Source: Gammaproteobacteria bacterium
Lineage (GTDB): Bacteria > Pseudomonadota > Gammaproteobacteria > JAJPIJ01
Direction: 5' to 3'
Length of the DNA: 64,000 bases
NCBI GenBank assembly: GCA_022071965.1
Contig: JAJVIQ010000013.1
Location: 1-64,000 of the forward strand
The position numbers and the translations under genes are program-made. Below are positions 56,968 to 60,940 of this stretch, piece by piece. The notes beneath the pieces are model-generated. The model searched no databases. It saw only the letters and a program-made list of their open reading frames with translations, and had not been told where the DNA came from. The first letter of the stretch is position 1; the number at the start of each line of letters is the position of its first letter.

Positions 56968-57309
56968 ATGAGTCATTCGATGAAACGCCTGAGCCCGATG
57001 TTGTTCATGTTCATGACATTGACCGCCAGCGCCGTGGGGGGCGATCCGCCATGGCTACAGGTCATCAGGCAGGCCGACACCGATGCCGACGGGAGCGTGA
57101 GCATGAACGAAGTGAAGGAGTACGCGCACAATGACGAGTACGTCGGGTTCCAGGCCTTCATGGCCGATCACTTCATCGCGCTGGACACCAACGAGGACGG
57201 CATGGTCAGCGTCCAGGAGATGAGAGAGGGTCTGCTGCGCCTGGGCATCTCGGATGACGAGATCTCGGAGGGCTTCACCAAGGGTTTTGCGTTCATGTCG
57301 AGGGAGTAA
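56968..57309 (+). CDS. Exported EF-hand protein, copy 1
   Basis: 113 residues: signal peptide about 24 residues (SPMLFMFMTLTASAVGG), then two canonical 12-residue EF-hand loops, DTDADGSVSMNE and DTNEDGMVSVQE, each with acidic residues at 1, 3, 5 (or Asn at 3) and Glu at 12. Calcium binding in the periplasm is likely. Between loops is GFQAFMADHFIALD, shared with the second EF-hand protein 424 bp downstream. GAGG precedes the ATG. No terminator seen after it. Confidence 0.85.
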   Translation: MSHSMKRLSPMLFMFMTLTASAVGGDPPWLQVIRQADTDADGSVSMNEVKEYAHNDEYVGFQAFMADHFIALDTNEDGMVSVQEMREGLLRLGISDDEISEGFTKGFAFMSRE

Positions 57310-57732: not shown

Positions 57733-58104
57733 ATGAAAAAGACATTCATCGCATTGGTGCTGACTTTCGCCGCCGGTTCGGCTTTCGCGGCGGGCGAGAC
57801 GGGATTCATGCCGTGGTCAAACTGGATGAAGGACATCTGGAGCGGTTATGACAGCAACAAGGACGGCGGGCTGAGCATGGACGAGATCAAGGAGATGAAT
57901 CATGTGCTCGGCGAGGACTTCAGCGGCTTCCAGCCGTGGATGACCGATCACTTCGCGGAACTCGATGCGAACAGGGACGGCGTGGTCGACACCGGCGAGC
58001 TGCACAACATGATGGTCGCTCACCAGTACACCGACAAGCAGATGGTGAACGAGTGGTACAAGAACACCGGCTTCATGCCGCACAACCCGGCCAATCAGAA
58101 CTGA
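57733..58104 (+). CDS. Exported EF-hand protein, copy 2
   Basis: 123 residues: clear signal peptide MKKTFIALVLTFAAGSAFA, then two canonical EF-hand loops DSNKDGGLSMDE and DANRDGVVDTGE, separated by GFQPWMTDHFAELD as in copy 1. The N- and C-terminal segments both contain TGFMP (residues ~23-27 and near the end). None of the loops has Pro at position 2, so it is not lanmodulin-like by that criterion. GAGG precedes the ATG; a strong terminator follows. Confidence 0.87.
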   Translation: MKKTFIALVLTFAAGSAFAAGETGFMPWSNWMKDIWSGYDSNKDGGLSMDEIKEMNHVLGEDFSGFQPWMTDHFAELDANRDGVVDTGELHNMMVAHQYTDKQMVNEWYKNTGFMPHNPANQN

Positions 58105-58152: not shown

Positions 58153-58190
58153 AGGCCCATCCCGGCAGCGGGATGGGCCTTCTTTCTCTC
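58153..58190 (+). terminator. Rho-independent terminator after EF-hand copy 2
   Basis: Perfect 12-bp stem AGGCCCATCCCG / CGGGATGGGCCT with loop GCAG, followed by TCTTTCTCTC. It lies 15 bp from the stop of the convergent fae-like gene. Confidence 0.88.
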
Positions 58191-58204: not shown

Positions 58205-58753
58205 TCAATACCATTGACCGGTCGACTGATCGAACATGTCGTGCTTGACCTTCCTGCGGGTGGCCAGGAGCTCCTTGATCGCGGGTTCTCCCTTCATCGC
58301 GCGTCGTACCGCGAGCGTCGTCGCCTCGTAGTTGTTGCGGAACAGCTCGTCCTTGTCGAGATTCGGATCCTTCGGTGCGCGCGGATCGATCCAGATGAGC
58401 GCAAGGATGCACAGGTCGTTGACCTGCGCGGCGGGTATTATCCTTTCCTTCACGCAGTCGACGATCGCGTCGGCGACGGCGGATTGCACCACGCCTCCGA
58501 ACAGGTTCACGTACGCCTCGTCCTTGATCGTCACCTTGGTTGCCATCATCGTCGGCGGCCGCACCATGTAGTTGCAGGCCCGCACCGCGAACATGCAGGT
58601 ATGGCCCTTGCTTTGCGCCATCATGTTGGCGAAGGCGTGACCGACCGGTCCGCCGACATCGCCGATGAGTATCTCCGGCATTGCATCCGTGTACTGCCCA
58701 TCGGATGCGAACACCGTGGCCTCGCCGGCCCGGAACAGGATCTTCTTTGCCAT
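58205..58753 (-). CDS. Formaldehyde-activating enzyme (Fae) homologue lacking the catalytic His
   Basis: 182-residue Fae-fold protein. Fae catalyses condensation of formaldehyde with tetrahydromethanopterin. Family blocks are clear: GEATVFASDG, GPVGHAFANMMAQSKGHT, KVTIKDEAYVNLFGG, ERIIPAAQVNDLCIL and NYEATTLAVRRAMKGEP. By my alignment from memory the essential His17 of Methylorubrum Fae (in AHIDLIIG) corresponds to Met25 here (AMPEILIG), and its neighbour Asp20 to Glu27. It therefore belongs to a Fae-like paralogue group of uncertain function. The second of two ATGs is chosen, with GGAG nine bases upstream. No other C1 gene is in the window. Confidence 0.85.
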   Translation of the reverse strand: MAKKILFRAGEATVFASDGQYTDAMPEILIGDVGGPVGHAFANMMAQSKGHTCMFAVRACNYMVRPPTMMATKVTIKDEAYVNLFGGVVQSAVADAIVDCVKERIIPAAQVNDLCILALIWIDPRAPKDPNLDKDELFRNNYEATTLAVRRAMKGEPAIKELLATRRKVKHDMFDQSTGQWY

Positions 58754-59116
58754 TCTTGCCATCTCCTCGTTGTCTCTGGGGTCATTCATCCACACGCGGG
58801 GACGCGCCATCGCCCCCGCCACTCGATCATCACGCGCGTCCGCGCGCCGCGCCCATGCTCCCGGCGGTGCGGCAGGAGGATATCCTTTCGAGGATCCATT
58901 GCCTGCGCCCCACCGCGACGCTTGCAGGTCCCGTGCGGGTGCAGCAGACATCGCGACCCCGGACCGGCCGGGTCGCCGGCGCCGCCATGTTAGAGATTGG
59001 CCCACCGGCCAGCAACGGCTGCTTGATGACGGCGCGGCCCCCGGCCCGGGCTCGAGTGGTGGTTTCGGAATTCCCCCGTATAATGAGCCCCCTTTATCTC
59101 CCGCCGGAATCTTCAA
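58754..59116. other. Divergent intergenic region fae-like/typA
   Basis: A 363-base gap. The only strong signal is a TATAAT on the plus strand (59079-59084) for typA. The fae-like side shows a good Shine-Dalgarno but no recognisable promoter. I see no small gene or RNA. Confidence 0.6.
59079..59084 (+). promoter_or_regulatory. -10 box of the typA promoter
   Basis: Perfect TATAAT 33 bases upstream of the typA start. The -35 is unclear; TGGTTT (59058-59063) is a weak match with a short 15-bp spacer. Confidence 0.6.
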
Positions 59117-60940
59117 GTGATTGAGATGTTGAGAAATATCGCCATCGTCGCGCACGTCGACCATGGCAAGACGACGCTCGTGGACTGCCTGCTTCAGCAG
59201 TCGGGTACCCTGGGCGAGCGCGCGACCGCCCCCGAGCGCGTGATGGACAGCAGCGATCTCGAGCGCGAGCGCGGCATCACCATACTCGCCAAGAACACCG
59301 CGATACGCTGGCGCGAGTATCGCATCAACGTGGTCGACACGCCGGGCCACGCCGATTTCGGCGGCGAGGTCGAGCGCATACTCTCGATGGTGGATTCCGT
59401 CCTGTTGCTGGTCGACGCCGTCGACGGCCCGATGCCGCAGACGCGCTTCGTGACCCAGAAGGCCTTCGCCCGCGGGCTGAAGCCCATCGTGGTGGTCAAC
59501 AAGGTCGACCGGCCCGGCGCGCGGCCGGATTGGGTGATCGACCAGACCTTCGACCTGTTCGACCGCCTTGGCGCCAGCGACGAGCAGCTGGACTTCCCGA
59601 TCGTGTACGCCTCGGCGCTGGAAGGCTGGGCGACGCTCGACCACGGCGCCGACAAGGGTGTGGACATGACACCGCTGTTCGAGACCATCGTCAAGCGCGT
59701 GCCGCGGCCCGACGTCGACATCGAAGGGCCTTTCCAGATGCAGGTGAGCGCGCTCGACTATTCCAGCTACGTGGGCGCCATCGGCATCGGGCGCATCACG
59801 CGCGGCCGTGCAAGACCCGGGATGGCCATCGTGCGCGTTGACGGGCCCGGCAACGGGCACAATGCCCGGCTGCTGCAGGTCCTGGGGTTTTACGGTCTGG
59901 AGCGGGTGCCGATGGAGGAGGCGGCGGCGGGGGATATCGTGGCGGTCAGCGGCATCGAAGGCATCCGTATCTCGGATACGCTCTGCGATCCGGCGCATCC
60001 GGAGGCGCTGCCGCGACTGTCCGTGGACGAACCCACCGTCAGCATGACCTTCCAGGTGAACGATTCTCCCTCCGCCGGCCGCGACGGCAAATTCGTCACC
60101 AGCCGCCAGATCCGCGAGCGCCTGGAGCGCGAGCTGATCCACAACGTCGCGCTGCGCGTGGAGGACACCGGCGACCCGTCGAGTTTCCTCGTCTCCGGAC
60201 GAGGCGAACTGCACCTGTCGATCCTGATCGAGAACATGCGCCGGGAGGGATACGAGCTTGCGGTCGGGCGGCCGAAGGTGATCTACAAGCACATCGAGGG
60301 CGTGGTTCACGAGCCCTACGAGCAGCTCGCGGTGGACGTCGAGGAGCAGAGCCAGGGCGGCGTCATGGAAAAGCTCGGCAGCCGCCGCGGCGAACTGGTC
60401 AACATGATGCCTGACGGCAAGGGCCGTGTGCGGCTCGAATACATGATCCCCTCGCGCGGCCTGATCGGTTTCCGCACCGAGTTCATGACGCTGACCTCGG
60501 GCACCGGGCTGATGTATCACACCTTCGACAGCTACAAGCCGGCCAGGCCGGGCGCGATCGCACAGCGTACCAACGGAGTGCTCATCGCCATGGAGGAGGG
60601 TCAGGCGCTGGGCTACTCACTGTTCAACCTGCAGGAGCGGGGCCGGCTGTTCATTGGCCACGGCGATGAGGTCTACGAGGGCATGATCATCGGCATCCAC
60701 TCGCGCGACAACGATCTCGTTGTAAATCCGCTGAAGGGCAAGAAGCTCACCAACATCCGCGCCGCCGGTTCCGATGAGAACATCATCCTCACGCCGCCGA
60801 TCCGTCTCGATCTCGAGCAGGCCCTGGAATTCATCGATGACGACGAGCTCGTGGAGGTGACCCCCAAGGCCGTCCGCCTGCGCAAGAAGCTGCTCAGGGA
60901 GCACGAGCGCAAGCGCGCCGTTCGGGCCGTCGCGGAGTAG
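59117..60940 (+). CDS. typA: Ribosome-associated translational GTPase TypA/BipA
   Basis: 607-residue EF-G-like GTPase acting in ribosome assembly and stress. G1 AHVDHGKTT, switch [19 protein letters not shown]4 [13 protein letters not shown]; then domain II, an EF-G domain III ([18 protein letters not shown]), domain V and the TypA-specific C-terminal domain with [28 protein letters not shown] at 59117 gives [15 protein letters not shown], matching E. coli MIEKLRNIAI. Two short ORFs follow closely. Confidence 0.97.

Follow-up and report, generated by a model that had tools for sequence, protein, structure and literature searches.

A Fae3-type homologue of formaldehyde-activating enzyme with Met and Glu at the catalytic His and Asp positions, from a genome with a tetrahydromethanopterin pathway

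Introduction

What does a protein do that resembles formaldehyde-activating enzyme (Fae) and has neither the catalytic His of that enzyme nor the conserved Asp beside it? The question is raised by a gene of Gammaproteobacteria bacterium assembly GCA_022071965.1, located in the first 64,000 nucleotides of contig JAJVIQ010000013.1, the stretch that was analysed here as a whole (the window). Fae2 and Fae3 types have been named without an explained function (PMC3728764, PMC4109929). In a 2024 phylogeny five Fae groups were distinguished, with bacterial Fae as group 1 and archaeal Fae as group 5, and groups 2-4 were stated to have no known function (accessible text of PMC11748545).

Gene and family assignment

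The open reading frame lies on the minus strand (58753-58205), with an ATG start at 58753 and a TGA stop ending at 58205, and encodes 182 amino acids with the N-terminus MAKKILFRAGEATVFASDGQYTDAMPEILIG. An SD-like GAGGAG is located upstream, and GC content by codon position was 59/41/84%. Values of dN/dS were 0.04-0.09 against the nearest relative (95% identical product) and 0.08-0.13 against two family members. The reading frame is thus a real, working gene under purifying selection, and a decaying pseudogene was ruled out by the conserved Met-Pro-Glu triplet described below together with the dN/dS range of 0.04-0.13. The following features are referred to throughout, with codon numbers of the encoded protein:

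58205..58753, minus strand: fae-like gene, Fae3-type (clade A), 182 aa; from profile matches, alignment and tree
58679..58681, minus strand: codon 25, Met, at the catalytic-His position of Fae; from alignments, 89/89 clade-A sequences and 30/30 without motif filter
58673..58675, minus strand: codon 27, Glu, at the conserved Asp (His+2) position of Fae; from alignments
58601..58603, minus strand: codon 51, His without exception in clades A and B, where canonical Fae usually has Phe; from alignment
58529..58537, minus strand: codons 73-75, Lys-Val-Thr, with Lys and Thr at the positions of Fae residues that contact the pterin; no variation in clade A
58484..58486, minus strand: codon 90, Gln, matching the pterin-contacting Gln of Fae; invariant in clade A
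58754..59116, no strand: intergenic region of 363 bases from which the fae3-type gene and typA/bipA diverge; from ORF bounds
59117-60940, divergent from the fae3-type gene: typA/bipA, start at 59117
58153..58180, no strand: probable terminator, a hairpin of 12 pairs followed by a T-rich tail, where the fae3-type and EF-hand genes converge; by consensus match only

The product was matched by the Pfam profile of Fae (PF08714) with 193.9 bits (E 2e-57, gathering cut-off 27) and by NCBIfam TIGR03126, the equivalog model for Fae, with 136.8 bits at a cut-off of 118. Its best PDB match was to the Methylobacterium extorquens Fae structures (1Y5Y/1Y60); an AlphaFold2 model with a mean pLDDT of 92 was superposed on 1Y60/1Y5Y with a target-normalised TM score of 0.91-0.94, and nothing else matched well. 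By profile and predicted structure, the protein is a secure Fae homologue with the Fae fold. With canonical Fae it has about 34% identity and the Lys, Thr and Gln of the pterin site in common; it differs in having Met and Glu where Fae has the catalytic His and Asp, in a Leu-to-Phe change, in a 5-residue insertion near position 130 and in belonging to a separate clade. Identity was 95% to the nearest relative and 55-72% to most other clade-A relatives.

Active-site residues

The active-site residues of Fae, as given in published structure and UniProt annotation, are taken here to be His17, Asp19, Leu48, Lys66, Thr68 and Gln83, with pterin contacts presumably made by Lys, Thr and Gln as annotated for 1Y60. 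The spacing of the window protein in the alignments fitted these positions. In the pairwise alignment to 1Y5Y, Met25 was opposite the His and Glu27 opposite the Asp of the AHIDL motif, as had been proposed in the initial annotation, and multiple and clade-wide alignments agreed; no His was found at that site. An alignment artefact hiding a His was ruled out by the same agreement. The His-Ile-Asp of functional Fae (AHID motif) is thus absent and replaced by Met-Pro-Glu. Both the loss of the His/Asp pair and a role other than that of an ordinary Fae, as suggested earlier, are supported.

Met25, Pro26, Glu27, His51 and Phe55, as well as Lys73, Thr75 and Gln90, were invariant in 89 clade-A sequences. 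The named scan for clade A used a pattern that itself contained MPE, so that its sequences were partly pattern-selected; invariance was therefore re-counted on 30 clade-A sequences retrieved by whole-protein search without a motif pattern, the window's own included, and Met-Pro-Glu, His51, Phe55 and the Lys/Thr/Gln set were present in 30/30. A chance variant of one genome was ruled out. His51 is a candidate for a relocated acid/base residue.

Phylogeny of Fae-like proteins

The survey drew on 369 genomes sampled across the class and 398 sampled across the phylum. The tree of 152 sequences comprised four supported groups: A (89 sequences, the window protein included), B (23), C, the canonical Fae (36), and D (4). 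Clade A, which is proteobacterial, was monophyletic with support of 100/92, the canonical clade was supported with 99/98, and A and B were sisters with 100/97. The phylogeny, which had been called for in the initial annotation, placed the window protein inside clade A and outside the canonical Fae clade; it carries the TDAMPE motif and is monophyletic with the named clade-A members. The catalytic triplet followed the groups strictly: all 89 sequences of A had Met-Pro-Glu, all 23 of B had Glu-Pro-Glu, all 36 of C had His-(Ile/Val)-Asp and all 4 of D had His-Ile-Asn. Since the triplets are invariant across clades A and B, the loss of the His is old, common to both clades and fixed.

Clade B, which is probably the Fae2 of the Methylophilaceae literature, likewise lacks the catalytic His and has the same Pro-Glu and the same His51, but differs from clade A in that Glu, not Met, takes the place of the His; identity is about 41%. 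This Glu was present in all 23 clade-B sequences, so that two different replacements of the His were fixed.

Group D is a fourth Fae-like group with an altered Thr site besides its His-Ile-Asn triplet, and was observed in Caballeronia/Paraburkholderia-type and other genomes (eight loci). Four complete genomes (G544, G563, G717, G719) had a group-D Fae as sole Fae homologue and no mch. Group D may accordingly act without tetrahydromethanopterin (H4MPT), and it may be a better candidate than clade A for a truly different reaction.

Local surroundings of the window gene

The fae3-type gene stands by itself: typA/bipA is its divergent neighbour on one side, and on the other an EF-hand gene that ends at 58104 runs towards it. 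No sigma-70 consensus promoter for it was found in the intergenic region 58754..59116. The divergent arrangement with typA/bipA was seen in 4/4 genomes of the family, the window's included. Two small, putatively exported EF-hand proteins are encoded on the plus strand at 56968-57309 and 57733-58104; this gene pair, convergent with the fae3-type gene, was kept beside it in the same 4/4 genomes, and on sequence inspection the EF-hand loops of both proteins were without the lanmodulin-type proline. No H4MPT-pathway genes were found near the clade-A gene in the window's own family (4 genomes).

H4MPT pathway in the same genome

The absence of methanopterin genes nearby, as recorded in the initial annotation, held within the window and failed at the level of the genome. 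In the assembly (3.56 Mb, 98.7% complete), a second, canonical Fae with AHIDL was located on another contig (C12, 41501-41971), surrounded by mch, mtdB (PF09176; named by Pfam, not by NCBIfam), fhcB, fhcA, fhcD, fhcC and formate dehydrogenase. All of the genes that were to be searched for (mch, mtdB, fhcABCD) were thus present, and a genome without the H4MPT pathway was ruled out. Contig C12 also carries biosynthesis-type genes (CitG-like, ATP-grasp, amino acid kinase, chorismate-binding). Four PQQ-dependent dehydrogenases of the methanol/ethanol type were above the family cut-off, one of them on C12. The formaldehyde-activating enzyme of this cell is the canonical Fae on C12, not the window protein.

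Co-occurrence and operon linkage across clade A

Another Fae was present in 45/46 named clade-A genomes, in 10/11 clade-A genomes of the class sample (hypergeometric P 6e-9, phylogeny ignored) and in 12/12 of the phylum sample. mch was found in 52/54 clade-A genomes, the two misses being a genome of 75% completeness (G011) and a MAG-derived genome of unstated completeness (G404).

Neighbouring genes were chosen with composition scoring, against antisense ORFs in GC-rich DNA. At 30 loci the clade-A gene had fhcC as its immediate upstream neighbour on the same strand; the gap ranged from -28 to 118 bases and was mostly 30-70. Its immediate downstream neighbour was pabB in 28 loci. In Variovorax, Pfam profiles confirmed fhcA, fhcC, fhcD and pabB, and fhcB had a partial match in NCBIfam; on plasmids of Azoarcus sp. 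KH32C and Aquabacterium olei the fhc linkage is shown by independent annotation, in which the clade-A gene is labelled fae. Most of the fhc-linked loci fell into one Burkholderiales part of the tree, with 6 context changes on the tree, and hence represent few independent events. The adjacency to fhcC was absent at the window gene and in its family, and, being seen in 30 loci, mostly of Burkholderiales, is not a defining trait of clade A. In 12 Caballeronia/Burkholderia loci, the clade-A gene was closely followed by a gene that on sequence inspection was catalase-peroxidase-like.

Clade A is tied to genomes with the H4MPT pathway and, in many lineages, to the fhcBADC operon. The view that this Fae homologue stands alone in a cell lacking H4MPT metabolism is not supported, given the pathway and canonical Fae in the same genome, mch in nearly all clade-A genomes and the many orthologues inside an fhc operon.

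Published relatives

The Fae3 of Methyloversatilis universalis FAM5 was described as a "distant homologue" that is about 10-fold up on methylamine, and it is dispensable, its deletion causing no growth defect (PMC5023235). A M. universalis genome was found to encode one clade-A protein and two canonical-type proteins, and the published Fae3 should therefore be the clade-A protein. In Methylobacterium aquaticum 22A, fae2 is located on plasmid 1p (PMC7356819), of which the sole Fae homologue belonged to clade A. We infer that the window gene belongs with Fae3 of FAM5 and Fae2 of 22A in the same clade, and it differs from both in its position between typA/bipA and EF-hand genes.

Native fae2 of 22A cannot replace fae1, a fae1 mutant being without growth on methanol though fae2 is present, and deletion of fae2 led to slower growth on methanol and lower yield (PMC7356819). 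The failure of the fae1 mutant argues against a Fae reaction at a useful rate by clade A. For fae3 of Methylotuvimicrobium alcaliphilum 20Z, neither a deletion phenotype nor complementation of an M. extorquens Fae mutant was reported in the accessible text of PMC11748545. Groups 2-4 of that phylogeny are likewise Fae-like, of open function and apart from bacterial and archaeal Fae; clade A presumably equals one of them, the correspondence being one of group rather than sequence by sequence, and the accessible text makes no mention of the residue replacements or of the fhc linkage.

The window protein is a further member of a known, functionally open Fae3-type group. The strict Met/Glu replacement, with the His always exchanged for Met and the pterin residues retained, may be unreported, as may the link to the fhc operon; neither was found stated in the accessible papers, which is not proof of newness.

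Proposed function and alternatives

Because a normal Fae and a full methanopterin pathway occur in the same cell, the clade-A protein is probably a pathway helper rather than a loner. Among the suggestions made earlier, binding of a pterin is favoured, and that pterin would most likely be H4MPT itself. We put at about even the chance that the protein is an auxiliary of the pathway that binds H4MPT or methylene-H4MPT and is not a formaldehyde-activating enzyme. The Fae fold and the H4MPT-contacting residues would have been kept, and the His/Asp pair that drives the condensation of formaldehyde with H4MPT lost; the ligand would be H4MPT or one of its C1-carrying intermediates, for example methylene-H4MPT, and the protein would act downstream of the true Fae as a carrier, as a buffer or as a partner that tunes flux, perhaps close to the Fhc formyltransferase/hydrolase complex. 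Several points weigh against this. Mutants of presumably equivalent genes are often without phenotype, as seen for fae3 in both M. universalis FAM5 (PMC5023235) and M. alcaliphilum 20Z (accessible text of PMC11748545), which lends no support to a contribution of such genes to the pathway. The operon linkage reflects the few events within Burkholderiales noted above, the window's own family has no pathway gene near its clade-A gene, and the conservation of Lys, Thr and Gln could reflect folding or pentamer assembly instead of binding.

An active pterin enzyme with different chemistry is unlikely; in it, Glu27 or a relocated His51 would serve as acid/base in C1 exchange between H4F and H4MPT, in release of formaldehyde from methylene-pterin, or in condensation with another aldehyde or pterin. 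In its favour, neither residue varies within clades A and B, the Asp site still holds an acidic residue, the methylamine induction of FAM5 Fae3 occurs where methylene-H4F forms (PMC5023235), and C1 shuttling has been proposed for Fae3 (PMC5023235, PMC6277846); the fae3 deletion in FAM5 without growth defect speaks against it. A sensor or regulator that reads the level of methylene-H4MPT or formaldehyde appears quite improbable. Sensing or signalling roles have been proposed for Fae-like proteins (PMC3728764, PMC4109929), the clade-A gene of Azospirillum oryzae immediately follows a chemotaxis receptor gene, and some Burkholderiales loci have genes for receptors or response regulators at a distance of a few genes. 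However, no DNA-binding, kinase or receptor domain was fused to the protein or regularly next to it, all recurrent immediate neighbours were metabolic (fhc, pabB, HAD), and a 22A strain without fae1, fae2 and hgd retains methylotaxis and formaldehyde taxis (PMC10613068).

A slow or back-up formaldehyde-activating enzyme that works despite the substitutions is, in our view, very improbable. The score is above the equivalog cut-off for Fae, clade-A genes are labelled fae in public records, and the condensation is also spontaneous, so that mere binding might accelerate it slightly; yet His and Asp are missing from every clade-A sequence, native fae2 did not rescue growth of the fae1 mutant in 22A (PMC7356819), and fae3 of M. 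alcaliphilum, a presumed equivalent, did not complement the M. extorquens Fae mutant according to the accessible text of PMC11748545.

For the favoured role as an H4MPT-binding auxiliary, a more specific form is tentative and rather doubtful: by replacement of His and Asp, the Fae pentamer may have been repurposed for a task at the Fhc complex, either keeping and passing on a C1-H4MPT intermediate or catalysing a new C1-exchange reaction. It would then be a distinct component of H4MPT metabolism and represent a step missing from current pathway maps.

Significance

Fae-like proteins of unexplained function are widespread in methylotrophs and in many soil Proteobacteria, and public records call them formaldehyde-activating enzyme though one large clade is without the catalytic residues. 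With the replaced and retained residues named, and with the fhc link, the old question of the role of Fae2 and Fae3 can be put directly to the test by binding assays and mutants.
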